Shown here piece after piece: positions 541 through 11,070 of a stretch of 48,095 nucleotides of DNA. Position numbers and translations under genes: made by a program. Within the stretch, counting starts at the first letter, position 1; the number at the start of each line of letters is the position of its first letter. The notes under the pieces are model-generated. The model was given only the letters and a program-made list of their open reading frames with translations. It was not told the origin of the DNA and did not search any database. The stretch is from Bifidobacteriaceae bacterium. Its GTDB lineage: Bacteria; Actinomycetota; Actinomycetes; Actinomycetales; WQXJ01. The stretch lies in assembly GCA_031281585.1 (NCBI GenBank), contig JAITFE010000135.1, positions 1-48,095 of the forward strand, read 5' to 3'.

Positions 541-1346
541 ACCGCTCGTGGACAAAACTAGGTGTTGGCCTGGCCCTTGTGATTCTTCTCCTTGTGGTCT
601 CCGCGTTGGCTCCCTGGTTGGCGCCGCATAACCCGGAGGAGATGAACCTGCTGGGACGCTACGCGCCGCCGTCGGCCGAGTTTCCTTTTGGGACCGACGA
701 CCTGGGGCGTTGCGTCCTTTCACGGGTCATCTGGGGCGGTCGGCCGGTGTTGGCGGTCACCGTGGCGGCCACCGCGCTCTCAGTCGCGGCGGGCGTGATC
801 CTGGGCGCCCTGACAGTGGGCAATCGCTGGCTGGATATCGTTCTGACGCGTTTGGCCGACGTCCAACTGTCGATCCCGGGTCTGGTCCTCGCGCTATTGG
901 CTGTGACGCTGCTGGGCACCAGCTTGGTGAACATAGTCGTGGTGCTGGCGTTGACGGCGTGGCCGCTGCACTTCCGGGTCGTTCGGACCCATTGCCGGAT
1001 GGTCAAACGGCTCCCGTTCGACGAGGCGTCGGTGCTGGCGGGAACCAAGTGGCCGCGCCGCGCGATCGACAACTATCTGCCCGGGATCGCGTCGGTGCTG
1101 GCGGCCACGGTCGGGGTCAACGCCGCAGGGTCCGCCTTGGCCACGGCAGGACTGAGCTATTTGGGGCTGGGCGTCACCCAAGCCGACTGGGGACACATGA
1201 TCGCCGCGACTAAAGGCCATTTGGCCGATGCCGTGTGGGCGCCCGGGTTTCCCTCCCTCGCCTTGGTGGCCCTGCTGTTGGGCATCCAGTTGATCGCCGC
1301 GAACCGCTCTGGGGCGGCGCTCGTCATTGGAACGGAGAAGACATGA
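537..1346 (+). CDS. Peptide-type ABC transporter permease, DppC-like
   Basis: This is the second membrane subunit of the importer, 269 residues with a GTG start overlapping the previous stop. It has an N-terminal membrane helix (about residues 8-26), then the family pattern PFGTDDLGRCVLSRVIWGGR, several membrane helices, and the EAA loop near residues 160-180 (FDEASVLAGTKWPRRAIDNYLP). It ends with the WGHMIAATK segment and a final membrane helix typical of DppC/OppC. The length is slightly short for the family (usually 280-310), because the tail after the last helix is brief. It would pair with the upstream permease and couple to the fused ATPase that begins at its stop codon (ATGA overlap). 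Confidence 0.92.
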   Translation: MNRSWTKLGVGLALVILLLVVSALAPWLAPHNPEEMNLLGRYAPPSAEFPFGTDDLGRCVLSRVIWGGRPVLAVTVAATALSVAAGVILGALTVGNRWLDIVLTRLADVQLSIPGLVLALLAVTLLGTSLVNIVVVLALTAWPLHFRVVRTHCRMVKRLPFDEASVLAGTKWPRRAIDNYLPGIASVLAATVGVNAAGSALATAGLSYLGLGVTQADWGHMIAATKGHLADAVWAPGFPSLALVALLLGIQLIAANRSGAALVIGTEKT

Positions 1347-3034
1347 GTGTTGCATTGTCGCCGGCCGCTGGCCGGCTAGGCGCGGCCGATCTTCCGCCGC
1401 GCGGCTTGCTGCAGGTGGAGGGGCTGTCGGTGGTTGCCGTCAAACGGGACGGAACTAAGGCTTTTCTGGTCGACAACCTGTCGTTTGCCGTGGCCGCCGG
1501 TTCGACCCACGGGCTGGTGGGCGACTCGGGCTCCGGAAAGTCGATGACGGCCAACGCGATCGCCGGCATCCTGCCGCCACCGCTAAGGGCCACGGGTTCG
1601 GTGGTGCTGAATGGCTTGTCAATCCTGGGGGAGGTCGGTGAACTGGCCAGGCTTCACCGCGCGCAGCGCCTCGGTTTCGTCTTCCAAAACCCGAAGGCGG
1701 CTTTGAATCCGAGGCTGCCCATTGGGACGCAGCTTCGCGAGGCCCTCGCGCCGGGTGACCGGCGGTCCACGGCGACGGCGTTGAAACGGGTGATAGGGCT
1801 GTTGGACGAGGTCCGCTTGCCGAACGCGGCTCAGCGGTTGACCGCCTATCCGCACGAATTGTCCGGCGGGCTGGCTCAACGTGTTGTGATCGCGTTGGCC
1901 CTGGCGCGCGACCCGTCGCTCTTGATCGCGGACGAACCGACCACGGCTTTGGACACGACCATCCAAAAGCAGATTCTGGACCTTGTCGACCAGTTGCGGC
2001 GGGAGCGAGGTCTGGGCGTCCTGTTGATCACGCATGACATTGGGATCGTGGCGGACCGCGCCGACAGGCTAACCGTGCTGGAAGACGGCCGGGCGGCGGA
2101 ACAGGGGGACACAGGCGCCCTCTTGATTCGCGGCGCGGCGCGCTCGCCGGTCACACGCGCCTTGGTTTCGGGCTCGATCGGGTTGGCGCGAGTGAGCACG
2201 CCGCCCGTGGACGGTTCTGCGGCTGAGAGTGAAGACGTGTATGTGGTGTCTGACGCTCGCCGGTCTTTCGACACGAAAGGCCGGCGAGCCAGCCACGTCA
2301 CCGCGCTGGACGGCGTCAATCTGACAATCCAGAGTGGCAAGTCGGTGGGGATCGTGGGCGAATCCGGCTCGGGGAAGACAACGCTGGCGCGGGTCTTGGT
2401 GGGTTTGGAACGCCTCGACGGCGGATCGGTGACTTACATGGGGCAACCCCTGGGACAGCTGTTGGGGAGAAGCCGCAAGGCTTGGCGGGCGGAGGTGCAG
2501 TTTGTCAACCAGGATCCGTGGGCCGCGCTCAACCCTCGCAGGAAGCTGGGACATTCGATAGCGGAGCCGCTGGCGGCAGGCGGTTGGAACGCCACCGCCA
2601 GAGCTGAACGTGTGAGCGAGGTGATGGCAGCGGTCGGGCTTGAAGCCGACCTGGCAAACCGGTTTCCGGGGCAGTTGTCCGGCGGGCAACTCCAGCGAGG
2701 TGTCATAGCGCTCGCCCTGACCCTGCGTCCAAAGGTGCTGATCGCCGACGAACCGGTCGCTTCGCTTGACGTGACGGTGCAAGCCAGGGTGATCGCCCTC
2801 TTGGAGGAGCTCCGCGACCAGTTTGGCCTCACCTATGTGCTCATCTCGCACGACTTGAGAATTGTGCGGCGCCTTTGCCTCGAGGTCGTTGTGATGACCG
2901 AAGGCCGCGTGGTCGAACGCGGCCCGGTCGGAAGGGTCCTCAATGCCCCGAGTCATCCCTATACCCGCAAGCTCGTGGACGCGGTCCCAGGACTGGGCCT
3001 CGCCACCACTCAGAAAGGAAACTCCACACCATGA
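1343..3034 (+). CDS. Peptide-type ABC importer ATPase, DppD-DppF fusion
   Basis: One 563-residue protein carries two ABC ATPase domains, replacing the separate DppD and DppF subunits. In domain 1 the Walker A motif GDSGSGKS is near residue 60, the signature LSGGLAQR near 173 and Walker B LLIADEPTT near 193. In domain 2 the Walker A motif GESGSGKT is near 340, the signature LSGGQLQR near 445 and Walker B VLIADEPVA near 465. Both domains look catalytically competent. The open frame extends upstream to 1235, but the ATG at 1343 overlaps the permease stop (ATGA), follows a GGAGAAG ribosome site and places the first residues where ABC domains begin. The C-terminus ends in the usual oligopeptide-type tail (SHPYTRKLVDAVP). 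Such fused ATPases are common in actinobacteria. Confidence 0.93.
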   Translation: MSVALSPAAGRLGAADLPPRGLLQVEGLSVVAVKRDGTKAFLVDNLSFAVAAGSTHGLVGDSGSGKSMTANAIAGILPPPLRATGSVVLNGLSILGEVGELARLHRAQRLGFVFQNPKAALNPRLPIGTQLREALAPGDRRSTATALKRVIGLLDEVRLPNAAQRLTAYPHELSGGLAQRVVIALALARDPSLLIADEPTTALDTTIQKQILDLVDQLRRERGLGVLLITHDIGIVADRADRLTVLEDGRAAEQGDTGALLIRGAARSPVTRALVSGSIGLARVSTPPVDGSAAESEDVYVVSDARRSFDTKGRRASHVTALDGVNLTIQSGKSVGIVGESGSGKTTLARVLVGLERLDGGSVTYMGQPLGQLLGRSRKAWRAEVQFVNQDPWAALNPRRKLGHSIAEPLAAGGWNATARAERVSEVMAAVGLEADLANRFPGQLSGGQLQRGVIALALTLRPKVLIADEPVASLDVTVQARVIALLEELRDQFGLTYVLISHDLRIVRRLCLEVVVMTEGRVVERGPVGRVLNAPSHPYTRKLVDAVPGLGLATTQKGNSTP

Positions 3035-4605
3035 TGAACAAAACGATTCGCGGCAGACTCCGTCTGCCTGTGGCGACCGCCCTGGCCGCCGCCTTAGCCT
3101 TGAGCCTGGCCGCGTGCAACGAGGAGCCGAACAAGCCCGCGGCGGCAACGGGCGGCGCGGAAAGCCCCGGCCAAAACACCGATCGGGAAGTTGTAATCGC
3201 CTCCTATGCCGGATGGACGTCGCTTGATCCGGCGATCGGAGGCGGAATCCGGGACCTCAGCTTGCTCAGGTCGCTCTATTCGGCTTTGACGCAAACGGAC
3301 AATCAAGGACGACTGCAACCGGACGCCGCGACCAGTTGGGAGCGCACGGAAGACAACGTCTGGCGGTTCGCCCTCCGCCAGGGGTTGGTGTTCCCGAACG
3401 GCGAAAAGCTGGACGCGGCCAATGTGGTCTGGAACCTGAACCGGCAACTCCACGACACCCCCAAGCCGGGCAACTGGATTTCGGCCTCAATCAGCAACAT
3501 CACCGACATTCAGGCTGACGGCGACTATGCGGTGCTGGTCAGCACGGAAGAGCCGGATCTGCTGCTGCCGCAGCGGCTGAGCGGCATCTACCTGGTGTCG
3601 AAAGAGTTCGCGGCCAGCCACGATTTGAACACTGAAGCGCTGGGCACTGGTCCCTACGACCTGGTCAGCTTCGCCCCGGATTCGGAGGTCACTCTCAAAG
3701 CCAAACCCGAGTACTACGCGGGGGCCGCCGCTTTTCAGAACGTTCGCTTTGTGGTCACGCCGGACGTGGCCAACAAAATCAATGCGCTGAAGACCGGTGA
3801 GGTGGACCTCGCCAACATCATTGACCCGGCCGATTTCGAAGGACTTGAGCAGGCGGGCCTGGTGACGGGTTCGGTACCCTCCGCGCGGATCTATCTCCTG
3901 ACGGTCAACACCAATATCAAGCCGTTGGACGACGTGCGGGTGCGCCAAGCCATTTCTCTGGCGATTGATCGGGAGTCCATCATTGAATCGCTCCTCTCAG
4001 GCTTGGTCGACCCGGCGCTGAACCAAAACATCTCGGCGGTGTATGACGCCTACAACGATGAGCTGGGCTTTCCGGAATACGACCCGGCCAAAGCCAAGGA
4101 CCTGCTCAAGCAGGCGGGCGTGGATGACGGTTTCGAGGTCGAGATCATCTCCTCCCAAGGCGGGTCGATCGCGAATGAACAGATCATCCAGGTGATCGGG
4201 CAGCAGTTGGGGGAGATCGGGATCACCGCCAAGGTCTCCACGCCGCCCTCGTCCGTGTTGATGGAGCGCCTCACCAGTGGCGAGACGGCGGCGGGGCTGA
4301 CGCATATCGGCTTTATCGACACCGCCATAGTCGCGGGGGAGACTCTGAGGTACATAGGCGGCACGCACAGCCAATCCTGGACGGACGTGGCACCCGGTTA
4401 CGACGAGGCGGTGGCGGCCGCTCGAAGCGCCAACACCGAAGAAGAGAAGGTTCAGTCCATAAAGGACGCGACTCAAGCGGCTCTGGACAACCAACAGACG
4501 ATTTACCTTTGGCCAATCGCAGCGACCTACGCACACGCCAAGGACCTCAAATGGCAGGCCCGACCCGACGACTACATCCTGCCGTATGAGATCAAGGCCC
4601 TCTGA
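3031..4605 (+). CDS. Peptide-type ABC transporter substrate-binding lipoprotein (SBP_bac_5)
   Basis: This is the extracellular solute receptor of the importer, 524 residues. The ATG at 3031 overlaps the ATPase stop and follows an AGAAAGGAAA ribosome site. An N-terminal signal peptide (basic MMNKTIRGRLR, then an Ala/Leu core) ends in a lipobox LAAC with the acylated Cys at residue 29. After it comes the SBP_bac_5 fold: LDPAIGGG, then a RFALRQGLVFPNGEKLDAANVVWNL-type block near residue 115, GTGPYDLVSF, and the central VNTNIKPLDDVRVRQAISLAIDR block near residue 290-310. The ligand is unknown. The family binds di/oligopeptides, nickel, opines and other small molecules, and the oxidoreductase genes downstream suggest a dedicated small substrate rather than general peptides. 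Confidence 0.93.
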   Translation: MMNKTIRGRLRLPVATALAAALALSLAACNEEPNKPAAATGGAESPGQNTDREVVIASYAGWTSLDPAIGGGIRDLSLLRSLYSALTQTDNQGRLQPDAATSWERTEDNVWRFALRQGLVFPNGEKLDAANVVWNLNRQLHDTPKPGNWISASISNITDIQADGDYAVLVSTEEPDLLLPQRLSGIYLVSKEFAASHDLNTEALGTGPYDLVSFAPDSEVTLKAKPEYYAGAAAFQNVRFVVTPDVANKINALKTGEVDLANIIDPADFEGLEQAGLVTGSVPSARIYLLTVNTNIKPLDDVRVRQAISLAIDRESIIESLLSGLVDPALNQNISAVYDAYNDELGFPEYDPAKAKDLLKQAGVDDGFEVEIISSQGGSIANEQIIQVIGQQLGEIGITAKVSTPPSSVLMERLTSGETAAGLTHIGFIDTAIVAGETLRYIGGTHSQSWTDVAPGYDEAVAAARSANTEEEKVQSIKDATQAALDNQQTIYLWPIAATYAHAKDLKWQARPDDYILPYEIKAL

Positions 4606-4651
4606 CGCGTCCGCGCCCTTCACCAACCATCTATGAAAAGAGGAAGAAACC

Positions 4652-5152
4652 ATGCCTTTGAGCGAATTAGCTGATTACATACCCTTCAAACGTGAGTTGC
4701 TGGCAACGCCTTCAGGGCCATCCGATCTGAAGCTCGCCGCCCGTGTGTCGGTCGAAGGAAGAGCCGGTGTGCGCAAAATCCGGATCCGGGACCACCTGAT
4801 CGTGTCCGATGTCCGGCATGTCGGCGGCGGTTCGGACCTTGGGCCGATTCCCGGCGAATTGGGGTTGGCGGCCCTGGCGGGCTGCTTGAGCCACGGCTAT
4901 GTCATCCAAATTGCCAAACGTGGCTACGAACTGCGCAAACTCGAAGTGGCGGTGGAGGAGGAGCCCACCCCTGACGGCTTCGACACCCCAATTGGGCTGG
5001 TCTACCACGTGACCGTGGACACTGACGCCCCCGAGGCCGAGCTTAAGGAGATTTTCGATGTTGTGGCGGAGAAGAGTTTTGTGCACAGGCTGCTGGCCGC
5101 CCCGACTTCCATTCGGGGTGGAATCACCAACGAGCGACAGGACGCTCGGTGA
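4652..5152 (+). CDS. OsmC-like protein
   Basis: A 166-residue protein of the OsmC/Ohr fold. The diagnostic segment is PGELGLAALAGCLSHGYV with Cys78 at the start of the central helix. In classical OsmC/Ohr peroxidases a second cysteine about 60 residues later (VHRxCP) completes the redox pair; here the equivalent position reads VHRLLAAP, so it is absent. Organic-hydroperoxide reduction by the two-cysteine mechanism is therefore unlikely, and a binding or single-thiol role is more plausible. It starts with ATG after an AAGAGGAAG ribosome site 46 nt past the lipoprotein gene and overlaps the next gene by GTGA. It is therefore translationally coupled to the flavoenzyme and probably serves the same pathway. 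Confidence 0.85.
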   Translation: MPLSELADYIPFKRELLATPSGPSDLKLAARVSVEGRAGVRKIRIRDHLIVSDVRHVGGGSDLGPIPGELGLAALAGCLSHGYVIQIAKRGYELRKLEVAVEEEPTPDGFDTPIGLVYHVTVDTDAPEAELKEIFDVVAEKSFVHRLLAAPTSIRGGITNERQDAR

Positions 5153-6345
5153 ACGCCCCGGCCCGACCGGCCGCCGACTACCCTTACCTGTTGCGAGGGC
5201 TGGACTTGCCGGACCACTTGACGGCGCGGGCGGAGGCCGCCAAGGCCGCCCTCCGTCCTGACGTTGACGCGCGCGAGGTGGCCGGTGGCGCGCCCGAATT
5301 TGAAAAGCAGGTCTTGCGGGACAACGGGCTGCTGATCGGACCGTGGGCGGATGGCGGACCCGAAACATGGGGTGAACTCTATGGGGTTCTCGCTGAAGTC
5401 GGCACCGTCGATCCGTCAGCGGCTTGGCTGGCGGGGTACCACCACCAGCATGTCTTGTTGCTAATCGAATCAGGTAATGAGGCATTGGCCCAGTGGGCGG
5501 TCAGGGAAACCGTCGCCAACGGCTGGCTGTGGTCGGGCGCCAATCATCCCTCCGGTCAAAGCGAGAGCACGGTGGTCCAAGTCGAGGGCGGCTGGCTGCT
5601 CAACGGGCGGAAGGATTTCGCCACCGGCAGCTTGGTGGGAGATCAATTCATCATCCAAGAGCGTTTTCCAACGGAGGCGGAGCCCAAACGGCGCGTGGCC
5701 TTGGTGGTGGACGGCCACTCGCCCGGACTCGTCCCCTTGAACAATTGGGAAGGCATCGGCATTGTCCGGTCGTCCTCGAACTCCATCGAACTGCGCGATG
5801 TGTTTGTGCCGGAGAGCAAGTTCATCAAGTTCAGTTCGCTCGAGTCGGGGCCGCCGCTGGTGTCTGAAACAGCGGCATCGCCGGCGTTTCAGCTGATGTT
5901 CGTCAATGTCTACCTGGGCATTGTGATCGGCGTGCTCAGGCGGGCCTACGACTTCCTGCACGGTGACAACGCCGGCCAACCTGACCGGCGCCTTTCACTC
6001 AGCCAGGTGCAGGAGATCTTCGGCGAATTGGTCGGCCAAGCGGGCTTGCTGCGTTCGGGGCTGCTCTACGCGAACGAGAGCCTGGACCGGTATCTCAAGG
6101 CGCCCGGCGACGCGCGAGCCGTCGACCGCCTGAACCTTGACGTCGCGGCCTTGAAAACGCCCGCCCATCAAATTGTTGTGGACGCCACCACCAAGATCTT
6201 CGAAACGGTTGGTTCGCGTGGCGCCGTCAATAGCACTGGTTTCGACCGCTATTGGCGGGACGCTCGCCATCACACTTTGCATGGCGAACAGCGAGCGGCC
6301 TACCGGAACCTGGGAGTCCACGCCCTCGCGGTTTCTCAGCCCTGA
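5149..6345 (+). CDS. Acyl-CoA dehydrogenase-fold flavoenzyme (DszC/SfnB-like monooxygenase)
   Basis: A 398-residue flavoprotein of the acyl-CoA dehydrogenase superfamily. Visible hallmarks are an N-terminal helical domain with an alternative-exit residue set (VDPSAAWLAGYHHQH), a middle beta-domain with WLLNGRKDFATGS and the RSSSNSIELRDVFVPE block, and a C-terminal helical bundle ending RYWRDARHHTLHGEQ. That ending (RDxRxHTLH) is characteristic of the DszC/SfnB/HpaB-like group D monooxygenases, which use reduced flavin and oxygen, rather than beta-oxidation dehydrogenases. The family carries out S- or N-oxygenations and needs a flavin reductase; the nitroreductase 59 nt downstream could supply it. 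Start GTG at 5149 overlaps the OsmC stop. The substrate is not determined by the sequence. Confidence 0.85.
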   Translation: MNAPARPAADYPYLLRGLDLPDHLTARAEAAKAALRPDVDAREVAGGAPEFEKQVLRDNGLLIGPWADGGPETWGELYGVLAEVGTVDPSAAWLAGYHHQHVLLLIESGNEALAQWAVRETVANGWLWSGANHPSGQSESTVVQVEGGWLLNGRKDFATGSLVGDQFIIQERFPTEAEPKRRVALVVDGHSPGLVPLNNWEGIGIVRSSSNSIELRDVFVPESKFIKFSSLESGPPLVSETAASPAFQLMFVNVYLGIVIGVLRRAYDFLHGDNAGQPDRRLSLSQVQEIFGELVGQAGLLRSGLLYANESLDRYLKAPGDARAVDRLNLDVAALKTPAHQIVVDATTKIFETVGSRGAVNSTGFDRYWRDARHHTLHGEQRAAYRNLGVHALAVSQP

Positions 6346-6404
6346 GCGTGGCCAACGGACCAAGTGGACGCCCAATCCATCTCATCAACCAGCAAGGAAG
6401 ACAA

Positions 6405-7079
6405 ATGCCAACACTCAATCGCGCCGACCTCTCGGCCGCCATCCGCAACCGGTTTGCCATCCGCGAATACGACAAAGACAATCCCGTCAGCCCGCAAGAC
6501 CTCGATTTCATCCTGGAGGCGGCGCACTTGGCGCCCTCCTCGATGGGCCTTCAACACTGGAACCTGTTGGTGATCACCGATCACGCCCTGTGGGACAAGC
6601 TCAAGCCCGTGGCGGGTGGCCTGCACAACTCCCTGGACGGCGCCAGCCACCTGGTCATTTTCACGGTGGTGGCGCCTGATCGATTGCGGCCGGGCGGCGA
6701 GCACACCCTGGGCCTTTGGCGAGCTTGGGGGCATAAGGGCGAAAGCCTTGAGCGGCGTCGCAGCAACTTGGAGGCTTTTCTGCGGGAGAACCACAAGATC
6801 CGAACTGATCGCGAGGTTATCGACTGGGCCGCGCGTCAGGCTTACATCGCGTTGGGCAGTTTGATCCAAGCGGCAGCCCTGGTGGGGGTCGACAGTTGCG
6901 CCATCGAGGGTTGGGTCCCGGCCGAGGTCAACCGGGTGTTGAGCGAGGCCGGAGTCATCGACCTCAGCCACGAGCTCGCGGTTGTCGGGGTGGTCTTGGG
7001 CCACCGCGCCGGCCCTCCGGACCATGAGCGCCGCCGCCGCCCAAAGGACGAGGTGATTCGTTTCGTCCGCGGGGCCTGA
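6405..7079 (+). CDS. Nitroreductase-family FMN oxidoreductase
   Basis: A 224-residue protein of the NAD(P)H:FMN nitroreductase fold. The N-terminal block RFAIREYDKDNPVSPQDL, the HLAPSSMGLQHWNLLV helix-strand (FMN phosphate binding and dimer interface) and the later IALGSLIQAAALVGVDSCAIEGW segment are typical. The open frame runs upstream to 6252, but the ATG at 6405 follows an AAGGAAG ribosome site and gives the usual N-terminus and length. In this context it may reduce flavin for the DszC-like enzyme or reduce a pathway intermediate; both are inference. The 59-nt gap to the upstream gene contains no obvious promoter, so it is probably co-transcribed. Confidence 0.9.
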   Translation: MPTLNRADLSAAIRNRFAIREYDKDNPVSPQDLDFILEAAHLAPSSMGLQHWNLLVITDHALWDKLKPVAGGLHNSLDGASHLVIFTVVAPDRLRPGGEHTLGLWRAWGHKGESLERRRSNLEAFLRENHKIRTDREVIDWAARQAYIALGSLIQAAALVGVDSCAIEGWVPAEVNRVLSEAGVIDLSHELAVVGVVLGHRAGPPDHERRRRPKDEVIRFVRGA

Positions 7080-7151
7080 CAAAGAATCAGGCGGCCGCCC
7101 GCCGTGCTCCTTTCCGGGTGTGGTCCCCAGGCCGGTGGTAATGTCCAACAC

Positions 7152-7736
7152 GTGCAAACTCCCCCGGACGCCTTCCGCTTCCGGTCAGGTTTCGCCTGCA
7201 TTGATTTGACGGCCACTTTCGCCTGGCATGGACGGCTGAGCGGTCAGGACCGCCTGGCCCGCCCGGCTGACCTAGAGGCGTGGCTCGCCGCCAGCCCACT
7301 CGGTCCCACGGTGAGCGCCGCCACCGAGGACGACCTGAAATTGGCCCGCGAACTGCGTGGGGCCATTTACCAGTTGGCTTCGGCACCGCACTTTGGCCGC
7401 GCTGTCAACGCACGCGACGTGGAGTACCTGAACGCCGCCGCCGGGGAGCCGGTGCGGGGTCCAAGGTTGGTCGGGGATGGCTCGCCCTTCCAGACTGCGG
7501 ACATCGACGCGCCAAGGGAAATGCTCGGCGTGCTGGCACAGCAAGCGGTTCGCCTGCTCGGCGGCCCGCTGCAGGGGCGCATCAAGGAATGCGCTTATCC
7601 GCCGTGCTGGTGGTTGTTTGTGGATCGATCACGGTCAGCCAACCGCCGGTGGTGTTGTTTGCAGTGCGGGCAGCGGGTCGCTTCACGCAACTACCGGTCC
7701 CGCCGCCACGGCCGACAACCTGCTGCGGGCGCGTAA
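7152..7736 (+). CDS. CGNR zinc-finger (ABATE-domain) protein, probable regulator
   Basis: The N-terminal part (FRFRSGFACIDLTATFAW onward) matches the ABATE stress-response domain found upstream of CGNR fingers. The C-terminus has the CGNR zinc-finger layout ECAYPPCWWLFVD, RSRSANRRWC, LQCGQR, with the four cysteines expected to hold zinc. The name-giving CGNR box reads CGQR here, a small deviation. Proteins of this family are presumed DNA-binding regulators, so it may control the upstream transport/oxidation genes. The start is uncertain: GTG at 7152 gives the more family-like N-terminus (194 residues), while GTG at 7104 would add 16 residues. It lies 72 nt after the nitroreductase and is followed immediately by a large palindrome. 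Confidence 0.82.
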   Translation: MQTPPDAFRFRSGFACIDLTATFAWHGRLSGQDRLARPADLEAWLAASPLGPTVSAATEDDLKLARELRGAIYQLASAPHFGRAVNARDVEYLNAAAGEPVRGPRLVGDGSPFQTADIDAPREMLGVLAQQAVRLLGGPLQGRIKECAYPPCWWLFVDRSRSANRRWCCLQCGQRVASRNYRSRRHGRQPAAGA

Positions 7737-7741
7737 ACGAC

Positions 7742-7799
7742 GAAAACGGGGACGGTACCTATTTCCGGCTCGCCGGAAATAGGTACCGTCCCCGTTTTC
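7742..7799. repeat. Perfect 28-bp inverted repeat with 2-nt loop (REP-like/bidirectional terminator)
   Basis: Bases 7742-7769 and 7772-7799 are exact reverse complements, separated by TC. Each arm contains GGGGACGGTACCTATTTCC flanked by A/T runs (GAAAAC ... GTTTTC), so either transcript would end in a strong hairpin followed by U residues. It sits between two converging genes (stops at 7736 and 7806), the right place for a bidirectional terminator. The length and perfection exceed a normal terminator and resemble palindromic REP-type elements. No second copy is present in this window. Confidence 0.9.
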
Positions 7800-7805
7800 C
7801 GGTTC

Positions 7806-8981
7806 TTAGGCGTTGGCGGCGCGCGTTAGGGCCTGGTCCAGGTCTGCCCACAGGTCGTCCACGTTTTCGATGCCGACCGACAGGCGGATCAGGCCTTCCG
7901 GGACGTCGATGAACTCGCCGGGCCAGCGCCGCCGGCGCTCCAGCATCGATTCGACCCCGCCCAGGGAAGTGGCCGGCGCCCAAGACTTGGTCTGCGCGGC
8001 CACGGCGTCCGCCGCCTTCGCGCCCCCTGCCAGCTCAATCGAGATGATGCACCCGAAGCCCGTCATCTGGCCCTTGGCCGTGGCGTGGCCGGGATGCGAG
8101 GCCAGCGACGGATGAATGACCCGCTCGACTGCGGCGTGCGACTCGAGCCGCCGCGCCAGGGTGGCGGCCGAGGCGTTCGACCGCTCGGTTCGCAAAGCCA
8201 GGGTCCTAAGGCCGCGCAGGAGCAGGAAACCGTCGAACGCGGACGGGGTGGCTCCGCGAATCCGGCGGAAGTCCCGCAAGGCGGTGTCCTGGTCCGCTGA
8301 TCCCGCCACCGCGGCCCCCAGAATCAGGTCGCTGTGGCCGCCCAGGCACTTGGAGGCCGAATGGACCACCACGTCCGCGCCCCAGTCGAGGGGCCGCTGG
8401 CCCAACGGGGTGGCAATCGTGTTGTCGACCGCCACAATCGCGCCGACCTCGTGCGCGGCGGCCACCAGCGCGGGGCCGTCGGCGATCTCCAGCAGCGGGT
8501 TGGTCGGCGTCTCGATCCAGAGCATCGCGGCCGGGGCGCTTCCCTCGCCGCCGGCCAGCGCCGCGATCACGTCTTCGGTGCGGTCGATCGGCAGGGTGGA
8601 CAGCCGGATGCGCCCGTGGGAGGCGAGTTCGCGGGCCAGGGCCAAGGTGCCGTTGTAGGCGTGCGACGGCATCACCAGGCGCCCGCCCATTGGCATCAGC
8701 GAGAAGGCGGCGTCGATCGCGGCCATGCCGGATGAGAACAACACCGCGTCGTGCGGGCCGCCCTCGAGCAGGCCGATCACCTGTTCGGTCGGGTGGTTGG
8801 AGGGATTGTCATAACGGGCGTAGGACGGCTCCCGCTCGCCCGGAATGCCTCTCGAAATAAAAGTGGAACTGAACAGCACCGGGGGATTCACAGGTTCGCC
8901 CTGCTCCCATTCGGGCCTGCCGGCGGCTACCACCGCCGTGTCGGGGGACAAATCCGCATAGAAACTACGGGCAAGTGCCAT
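7806..8981 (-). CDS. metB: Cystathionine gamma-synthase-like PLP enzyme (trans-sulfuration family)
   Basis: A 391-residue Cys/Met-metabolism PLP enzyme. The PLP lysine lies in VVVHSASKCLGGHSD. Other landmarks are the SYARYDNPSNHPTEQVI block, the FSSGMAAIDAAFS cofactor loop, ETPTNPLLEIADG, and the C-terminal SLGGVESMLERR followed by LIRLSVGIENVDDLW. These fit cystathionine gamma-synthase/lyase; the exact reaction (succinyl/acetyl-homoserine plus cysteine, or cleavage) cannot be fixed from sequence. The open frame reaches 9227, but the ATG at 8981 is 8 nt downstream of a TAGACT box and starts a normal N-terminus, so leaderless translation is likely. A methionine/cysteine role agrees with a possible sulfur function of the convergent operon, but the link is only positional. 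Confidence 0.87.
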   Translation of the reverse strand: MALARSFYADLSPDTAVVAAGRPEWEQGEPVNPPVLFSSTFISRGIPGEREPSYARYDNPSNHPTEQVIGLLEGGPHDAVLFSSGMAAIDAAFSLMPMGGRLVMPSHAYNGTLALARELASHGRIRLSTLPIDRTEDVIAALAGGEGSAPAAMLWIETPTNPLLEIADGPALVAAAHEVGAIVAVDNTIATPLGQRPLDWGADVVVHSASKCLGGHSDLILGAAVAGSADQDTALRDFRRIRGATPSAFDGFLLLRGLRTLALRTERSNASAATLARRLESHAAVERVIHPSLASHPGHATAKGQMTGFGCIISIELAGGAKAADAVAAQTKSWAPATSLGGVESMLERRRRWPGEFIDVPEGLIRLSVGIENVDDLWADLDQALTRAANA

Positions 8982-9213
8982 GACTGTAGAGTCTACGGCC
9001 GTCCCGGCGGGCGAAACGAGGCAACAGATAACAAAACGGCCACGGCTTGCGGGGCTGCCAGACGGCATCGGCGGACCGGGCGGACTGAGCGGACCAGACG
9101 GCATCGGCGGACTCGGCGGACTTGGCGGCCGTTCGGCGTTGTTCGCTGACGGCTCCGCCCGGCGCGAACGGTTGACGACCGCCAGACGTGGGCGCGCTGT
9201 TACGGTATTTGGC
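8982..9213. other. Intergenic region with short GGCGGAC-type repeats
   Basis: This is the divergent spacer between the metB-like gene and glmS. It contains the -10 boxes of both genes. Bases about 9061-9130 form a run of degenerate CATCGGCGGAC / GGCGGACT units, including two copies of GACGGCATCGGCGG at 9061 and 9098. The same motif recurs elsewhere in the window. No convincing gene is seen. Confidence 0.6.
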
Positions 9214-11070
9214 ATGTGCGGAATCATTGGCTACGTGGGCCCGGTCGACTCGGGACGCCCGCTGGAGGTGGCGCGCGAGGCCCTGGCGCGGCTGCAATAC
9301 CGGGGCTATGACTCCGCCGGGATTGTGGTGGCGAACGCGCGGGGCCTGCACTTTGTGAAGAAGGCCGGCAAACTGTCCGTGCTTGAGGAGGCGTTGGAGG
9401 CCCAGCCCCTGCCCCCCGCGACGGCGGCGATTGGGCACACCCGTTGGGCCACCCACGGCGGCCCAACCGACGTCAACGCCCATCCGCACCTGAGCGAAGA
9501 CGGCTCGGTGGCCGTGGTCCACAACGGCATCTTGGAGAACCACCAGGCGCTCCGCGCGGAACTGATGGGGGCGGGCGTCGCCTTCCAGTCGGAGACCGAC
9601 ACGGAAGTGGCCGCCCATCTGCTGGCCCGCGCCTATTCCGAACTGGGGGACCTGCCGGAGGCGATGCGGGCGGTGGCGCGGCGGCTCGAGGGCGCGTTCA
9701 CGCTGCTGGCGGTGGCGGGGGACAATCCCCACCTGGTGGTCGGGGCCCGGCGCACGTCGCCGCTGGTGGTAGGACTGGGGGAGGGGGAGAACTTTCTCGG
9801 CTCGGACGTGGCCGCGTTTGTCGCCCAAACCGACCGGGCCCTCGAACTGGGCCAAGACCAGGTGGTCACCATCACCCCGACCAACGTGACCGTGACGGAT
9901 TTCGACGGCCGGGCGGTCCAGCCGCGCGAGTTCACGGTGGACTGGGACGCCTCCGCGGCGGTCAAAGGCGGTTTCCCCACTTTCATGGACAAAGAGATCC
10001 ACGACCAGCCGGACGCGGTGCGGGACACGCTGCTGGGCCGCCTGACGCCGAACGGCCAGTTGCAACTGGACGAATTGCGGGTGGACGAATCTCTGCTTCG
10101 GTCGGTGGACAAGATCGTGGTGATCGCCTGCGGCACCGCCGCCTACGCCGGCCATGTCGCCAAGTACGCCATTGAGCACTGGTGCCGCATCCCGGTCGAG
10201 GTCGAATTGGCGCACGAGTTCCGTTACCGGGACCCGGTGGTGGGCGCGAAGACGTTGGTGGTGGCGATCTCCCAGTCCGGGGAGACCATGGACACCATCA
10301 TGGCCATCCGCCACGCCCGCGAGCAGGGCGCGAAGGTGATCGCGGTGGTCAACACCATGGGCTCGACGATCGCCCGTGAATCGGACGCCGCCCTTTACAC
10401 GCACGCCGGGCCGGAGGTCGCGGTCGCGTCCACGAAGGCCTTCCTGGCGCAGATCACCGCCACCTACCTGCTGGGGCTTTACCTGGCCCAACTGCGCGGC
10501 ACCATGTTCCCGGACGAGATCCGGTCCGTGCTGCGCGAACTTGAGGCCATGCCCGCCAAGGTGCAGCGGGTGATTGACGGCGAAGGCGCGATCAGGGCGC
10601 TGGCGGACCGGATGAAAGACGTCAGCTCGGTGCTTTTCCTGGGCCGGCATGTGGGCTATCCGGTGGCCATGGAGGGTGCCCTGAAGCTCAAAGAACTCGC
10701 CTACATCCACGCCGAGGGGTTCGCGGCGGGGGAGCTGAAACACGGCCCGATCGCCTTGATCGACCAGGGCCAGGCCGTGTTTGTGGTGGTGCCGAGCCCC
10801 AGGGGCCGCGACGTGCTCCACGACAAGGTTTTGTCCAACATCCAAGAGGTCCGCGCCCGCGGCGCCCGCACTTTGGTGGTGGCGGAGGAAGGCGACGACG
10901 CGGTGGCCCAGCACGCCGAAGCCGTCTTTTGGGTGCCGCAGACGCCCACGCTGCTGGCCCCGTTGGTGGCGGTGGTGCCGTTGCAGATCTTCGCGTGCGC
11001 GTTGGCCACGGCCAAAGGCTTGGACGTGGACCAGCCGCGCAACTTGGCCAAGTCGGTTACCGTCGAGTGA
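9214..11070 (+). CDS. glmS: Glutamine--fructose-6-phosphate aminotransferase (isomerizing)
   Basis: GlmS makes glucosamine-6-phosphate from fructose-6-phosphate and glutamine, the first step toward UDP-GlcNAc and peptidoglycan. The 618-residue protein begins MCGIIGYVG, with Cys2 as the Ntn amidotransferase nucleophile. The N-terminal domain carries IGHTRWATHG and VVHNGILENH. Two SIS sugar-isomerase domains follow, with the sugar-phosphate loops VIACGTAAYAG and AISQSGETMDT, and the C-terminus ends NLAKSVTVE as in the family. The open frame extends upstream to 8980, but the ATG at 9214 puts the catalytic cysteine at position 2 as required. A TACGGT box ends 7 nt before the ATG, suggesting a leaderless mRNA. 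No glmS ribozyme-like leader is present. Confidence 0.98.
   Translation: MCGIIGYVGPVDSGRPLEVAREALARLQYRGYDSAGIVVANARGLHFVKKAGKLSVLEEALEAQPLPPATAAIGHTRWATHGGPTDVNAHPHLSEDGSVAVVHNGILENHQALRAELMGAGVAFQSETDTEVAAHLLARAYSELGDLPEAMRAVARRLEGAFTLLAVAGDNPHLVVGARRTSPLVVGLGEGENFLGSDVAAFVAQTDRALELGQDQVVTITPTNVTVTDFDGRAVQPREFTVDWDASAAVKGGFPTFMDKEIHDQPDAVRDTLLGRLTPNGQLQLDELRVDESLLRSVDKIVVIACGTAAYAGHVAKYAIEHWCRIPVEVELAHEFRYRDPVVGAKTLVVAISQSGETMDTIMAIRHAREQGAKVIAVVNTMGSTIARESDAALYTHAGPEVAVASTKAFLAQITATYLLGLYLAQLRGTMFPDEIRSVLRELEAMPAKVQRVIDGEGAIRALADRMKDVSSVLFLGRHVGYPVAMEGALKLKELAYIHAEGFAAGELKHGPIALIDQGQAVFVVVPSPRGRDVLHDKVLSNIQEVRARGARTLVVAEEGDDAVAQHAEAVFWVPQTPTLLAPLVAVVPLQIFACALATAKGLDVDQPRNLAKSVTVE

Follow-up and report, generated by a model that had tools for sequence, protein, structure and literature searches.

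A perfect palindrome between convergent genes of a Bifidobacteriaceae bacterium as a probable copy of a transposase-linked, dimeric repeat element

A long, perfect palindrome between two convergent genes raises the question of whether it is a lone transcription terminator or one copy of a mobile repeat. We analysed the window in which it lies (the whole 48,095-base stretch, contig C135 of a 3.98-Mb assembly in 169 contigs, hereafter G000). A listing of inverted repeats in the window (minimum arm length 14 nt, maximum separation 60 nt) revealed 16, with the pair at 7742-7799 being the longest and the sole gap-free perfect pair of its size. Its arms (7742-7769 and 7772-7799, 28 nt each, 100% complementary) enclose a 2-nt loop, TC (7770-7771), which differs among the copies described below; the perfect 58-nt repeat of the original prediction was thus borne out. 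The left arm, on the plus strand, contains the half-site GGGGACGGTACCTATTTCC at 7748-7766 with outer GAAAAC and inner GGC, and the right arm, on the minus strand, is a perfect inverted copy with its half-site at 7775-7793. At up to 3 mismatches the half-site had two matches in the window, both in the palindrome (mean and maximum of 100 shuffles, 0). As single-stranded DNA, the 58-mer had a predicted fold of -33.7 kcal/mol (z -12.6) and the RNA of 7736-7806 one of -53.3 (z -9.8), while a 28-nt arm alone folded no better than shuffled sequence (-2.2 kcal/mol, z 0.27).

The neighboring genes are convergent, as had been predicted. The palindrome starts 5 nt past the stop codon of an ORF for an ABATE and CGNR zinc-finger protein (7104-7736, plus strand) and ends 6 nt from that of an ORF for a Cys/Met-metabolism PLP enzyme (7806-9227, minus strand). 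The latter was closest to the NCBIfam models for cystathionine gamma-lyase/synthase, with scores under their cut-offs, and its true start is probably at ~8879 according to a crude codon-usage gene caller. Rfam returned zero matches at the gathering threshold in 7000-8600, and 7730-7810 had no match at E 1e-3 among 72,556 plasmid and 50,697 phage records.

Genome-wide, the half-site is abundant. We found 192 matches to GGGGACGGTACCTATTTCC at up to 3 mismatches (88 forward and 104 reverse; reversed control, 0), and a two-armed pattern with only GGGGACGGTACC fixed on each side matched at 55 places, so the single-copy outcome that would have pointed to a simple terminator did not occur and a lone terminator is ruled out by copy number. 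Entries on C33 and C71 among the 55 places are overlapping ends of a single copy, in which the two contigs end and overlap (C33:19206, L028; C71:14997, L050); palindromes therefore seem to break assembly. Overall, the genome holds about fifty near-identical palindromes, and many further half-sites are single or in direct orientation. We assembled a copy set from the window, the transposase locus described below (L010) and 64 stretches among the matches listed, a set partly selected by similarity, which contained 137 half-sites (up to 4 mismatches) forming 49 palindromes and leaving 39 unpaired. Doublets in this partly similarity-selected set were nearer the consensus than single half-sites (0.20 versus 0.71 changes per 18 positions). 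Complementarity of the flanks outside GGGGAC was 0.94-1.0 at 1-4 nt and fell to 0.90, 0.71, 0.50 and 0.27 at 5, 6, 7 and 8 nt, respectively, which indicates an element of ~60-64 bp with the consensus RRAAAY-GGGGACGGTACCTDTTTCC-GGC-NN-GCC plus its mirror. At up to 1 mismatch, the same type had 160 matches in its own genome, 1 in G001 and 0 in the others of 39 genomes, while a phylum sample of 396 genomes yielded 1 match in one other genome. Judged by these searches, the family is almost confined to its own species.

We also searched the genome for a gene of the TnpA_REP type and found two Y1_Tnp genes, L010 (C137) and L009 (C142). L010, a Y1/HUH transposase gene present in one copy, has the repeat of the palindrome on both sides: a perfect family palindrome lies ~140 nt before its ATG, and at its 3' end is a half-site whose TAG is the L010 stop codon. 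L009 has a different GGGGAC repeat, inverted, on either side. The L010 protein scored 43.3 bits against Pfam Y1_Tnp (cut-off, 23) and 69.3 against the NCBIfam REP-associated tyrosine transposase model, which is under its cut-off of 80. Its H60-x-H62 and Y119 are invariant in 12 relatives, and a profile of these relatives had TnpA_REP 4er8 as its top match among solved structures (E 7.5e-7), compared with E 0.16 for L010 alone.

The many copies, together with the match to repeats flanking a transposase-like gene, make a small mobile element very probable; both its origin and its mobilisation can very probably be traced to the L010 transposase. Its best reading is a REPIN-like dimer of a terminal repeat of the TIRYT kind. 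From the sequence comparisons, we are fairly confident that the palindrome is one of the copies of a non-autonomous, species-specific element of ~60-64 bp, which would be a head-to-head dimer of a TIRYT-type RAYT terminal repeat mobilised by L010. We infer that the single-copy transposase at G000:C137 would recognise its repeat, with the GGGGAC motif, on single-stranded DNA, in which form the dimer would fold into a long hairpin. It would then cleave the repeat and move or copy the dimer, by way of a single-strand intermediate, into new, mostly intergenic sites near gene ends.

Downstream of the PLP-enzyme orthologue, a family copy was present in none of seven congeners (at L174 only ~190 nt remain to the contig end). 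This agrees with absence at the site in related genomes, but the palindrome is located at a synteny break: synteny does not extend to the left flank, which leaves no clean empty site for comparison. No match (E <= 0.001) to the window's CGNR gene was found in any of nine congeners, on which basis window 578-7736 may be a species-specific block. This stretch carries genes for an oligopeptide-type ABC transporter and for OsmC-like, acyl-CoA-dehydrogenase-like, nitroreductase and CGNR proteins, and it ends at the palindrome. A putative gpsA-like gene lies near the PLP-enzyme gene in five of the seven congener loci (L172, L173, L175, L176 and L178) and had no match in the own genome, in a search that had no positive control and is hence no proof of absence. 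Rearrangement between copies may have occurred at the palindrome site. In G004, the closest congener by PLP-enzyme protein, another GGGGAC inverted repeat is found at the orthologous place, with arms of 21 nt that are 44 nt apart; at this locus (L172) it lies directly downstream of the PLP-enzyme gene and contains GGGGACGGTGATTGTG.

This G004 repeat at the orthologous place is one of several observations that would suit a host transcription terminator, with a hairpin multiplied by selection or recombination and not by transposition. A second is the excess of copies between convergent genes. After L050 and L063 were dropped from the copy set, for gene context as for the arm comparison below, the 47 remaining palindromes comprised 19 in convergent, 14 in tandem and 3 in divergent settings, 3 within called genes and 8 without a placement; for single or direct half-sites, in 23 groups, the corresponding numbers were 4, 10, 3, 3 and 3. 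Convergent settings thus accounted for 19 of 36 placed palindromes versus 5 of 34 other gene pairs in the window (p = 0.001), based on the calls of the crude codon-usage caller, which overlooked the CGNR gene next to the palindrome of the window. The same caller placed copies inside ORFs at L055:1187, L057:1019, L020:1179, L060:1179 and L070:1181. A third is the minus strand, on which the hairpin is followed by a T-rich tail and accounts for 3 overlapping matches of the 7 terminator-like matches in 1.6 kb (shuffles, 1.2). In the same 1.6-kb scan, however, the plus strand had no terminator match at the palindrome, where the tail has four T. Further evidence against a host terminator is that the same stretch of 40-odd letters recurs at dozens of loci that, flanks included, are unrelated, that the family is missing in congeners, that many half-sites are direct or single and that copies flank a transposase gene. 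We therefore regard a host terminator as an improbable origin of the family. As a mobile dimer, the palindrome perhaps also acts as a terminator at its own site; between convergent genes the hairpin may end transcription, in which case insertions there would be tolerated or kept. According to Di Nocera et al. 2013 (PMC3733652), REPs are located mainly between unidirectional and convergent genes.

Relatives of the transposase bear on another alternative, in which the palindrome belongs to a different transposon as a MITE, or serves as a protein-binding site, and the copies beside L010 are there by chance. With about fifty copies, one could land beside any gene; the second Y1 transposase, L009, has another repeat; and the transposon types covered by our search were Y1_Tnp only. 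Against chance, the repeat is present on both sides of L010, and the same plan recurs elsewhere. Y1_Tnp matches were found in 8 of 59 sampled genomes, the own genome counted, and five other loci of the genus have their own GGGGAC-type repeats inverted on both sides: L009, L083 (G004), L084 (G001), L085 (G009) and L087 (G005). These repeats are related yet different (for example, AAAATGGGGACAGGCCCCTTTCTGG in G004 and AAATGGGGACGGTCCCATTTTCAG in G005). The flanks of two more transposase loci in the genus, L086 and L089, had no such repeat pair, L089 being at a contig end. The G005 transposase and its flanks are the same as in the record Bifidobacteriaceae bacterium isolate Pcl387_bin33. Across bacteria, we kept 80 named loci from 272 encoding a relative, and among the 73 with enough flank, GGGGWC upstream and GWCCCC downstream were found in 39, whereas the controls gave 7 (opposite orientation) and 12 and 4 (reversed motif). 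A chance association of this kind is accordingly very unlikely, and we retain the L010-linked dimer.

Counts of each repeat type over ten genomes of the genus revealed that the types are, as far as these matches tell, largely species-specific. The repeat of the G004 transposase locus had 15 matches, confined to G004. The G001 type had 197 matches in G001, 25 in the own genome and 1 (with 2 mismatches) in G009, while its reversed control had 1 in G001 and 2 in G002. This GGGGACGGTCCTTTCGTC family is strongly amplified in G001, partly as direct arrays with a period of 48 or 26 nt (C15:6189-6350 and C277:5144-5265; L199 and L202). The G005 type had 5 matches in G005, 1 in G003 and 37 in the own genome, where one match was exact and those with 2 mismatches were mostly members of the own family. 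All 5 matches in G005 are at the transposase locus, so that this repeat is not amplified, which counts against the mobile reading. The exact match in the own genome is a palindrome at G000:C143:65057-65100 (L193), whose partner arm has 1 mismatch, and may be left over from an older family. L010 shares about 60-62% identity with its G005 relative, and the two occupy the same gap between two genes, putatively GlgB-like (91% identical) and thioredoxin/TPR-like (67%), but in reverse orientation relative to them and with different repeats (L010:341-3138 versus L091:1436-4592). Related transposases with different repeats, in different species of one genus and for two species in the same gap, make it possible to test directly whether transposase and repeat have evolved together.

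The two arms of a copy tend to vary together. At position 14, where copies have A, G or T, the arms agree in 46 of the 47 palindromes (shuffled mean, 18.2; maximum, 29). Agreement was also above shuffled pairing at positions -1 (45), -5 (42) and -6 (33). In the set defined by GGGGACGGTACC only (50 of the 55 palindromes listed, of which 2 were dropped to leave 48), the inner 7 nt agree between arms in 44 of 48 copies (shuffled mean, 10.1; maximum, 21), with 11 copies holding 8 rarer versions symmetrically versus 4 discordant copies. In the core outside position 14, the copy set had 5 symmetrical changed positions (4 palindromes) versus 9 asymmetrical ones (6 palindromes), and one-sided changes therefore do occur. 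Pairs of direct repeats, used as a control, agree at position 14 in 10 of 13 cases and at -1 in 7 of 13; palindromes therefore stand out clearly from this control at -1 but less so at 14. No association was seen between outer and inner variants (p = 0.75), and descent from a few founders is thus not an easy explanation, kinship lying outside these statistics. The original prediction also held that a perfect palindrome of this size is unstable in many hosts, which would suggest recent arrival or selection; recency does not follow, because the genome has about fifty such palindromes, in many diversified yet symmetrical versions.

One pair of copies is particularly informative. The palindromes at G000:C25:788-834 (L025) and C112:6629-6675 (L063) are located in a duplicated stretch of 974 nt that is 96.7% identical; they have the same arms, and their sole difference is an inverted 3-nt spacer, TCT versus AGA. 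This suggests the change expected from template switching, with assembly error as the alternative, and it strengthens the idea of arm homogenisation. We put forward, tentatively and as somewhat short of an even chance, that an active process keeps both arms of an element identical, probably replication template switching in the hairpin (quasipalindrome correction) or copying through a single-arm intermediate. Arm homogenisation and spacer inversion were reportedly the topic of an earlier paper. If the arms are indeed kept identical, the family would be a natural, genome-wide record of RAYT-linked arm homogenisation, and its copies could offer material for studying the formation and maintenance of perfect palindromes in bacteria. 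According to PMC8794818, perfect stems can be both created and repaired by template switching.

Placing the family among known repeats, the original prediction of a REP-like palindrome mobilised by a RAYT stands in its dispersed copies and in a transposase bracketed by the repeat, and not in the GT[AG]G foot or a half-site hairpin. A canonical GTAG REP or REPIN is highly unlikely and was rejected: inverted doublets, RAYT linkage and doublets nearer the consensus would favor it, but its two defining features are lacking, since a GT[AG]G foot is absent on direct reading of the half-site and flanks, and a half-site on its own gave no stable hairpin. For the same two reasons, the TIR/TIRYT kind fits better than a classical REP. 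We also considered a CGTC-tagged REP, as ACCGTCCCC contains CGTC, and did not adopt it because such repeats are described (PMC3733652) as having a stem of 8-9 bp next to the tag and no link to transposases. Like REPINs, as presented by Bertels and Rainey 2011 (PMC3116915), the element is a hairpin-forming inverted doublet linked to a RAYT, with doublets better conserved than singlets and compensatory stem changes; unlike them, it is without a GTAG/GTGG-type foot and its single unit is not a hairpin. RAYTs flanked by two inverted REPs are described by Nunvar et al. 2010 (PMC2817692).

The transposase itself resembles in part TnpAY1 subclass 2.1, to which most TIRYTs belong according to Quentin et al. 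2018 (PMC6006769) and which is defined there by NH[VYF]H, W[EQ] or FQ, Y[IV]HLNP and a C-terminal HTH. L010 shares the FQ motif and the YIHLNP tyrosine motif, but it has NHAH where the subclass has NHVH, NHYH or NHFH, and its length is 200 aa versus a median of 238. Our results add an abundant example of TIRYT-linked repeats for a Bifidobacteriaceae lineage, in a transposase group (subclass 2.1) near whose genes that survey reported an absence of REP-like sequences.

The closest likeness is to the TIRtron/TIRYT systems of Di Nocera et al. 2013 (PMC3733652), in which tyrosine transposases lie between inverted repeats that have GGGGWSAS in common and TIR families are dispersed. Both systems have a Y1 transposase (HUH plus tyrosine) between inverted terminal repeats that open with a GGGG[AT][CG]-type motif, and both have dispersed repeat families, some of whose members are dimers or clusters and some self-complementary. 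The motif here, GGGGACGG, has 7 of the 8 letters of GGGGWSAS, whereas the G004 repeat, GGGGACAG, fits it fully. The element described here further differs from the TIRYT repeats of that study in being a perfect palindromic dimer of ~60 bp with a variable 2-nt centre, in a new lineage.
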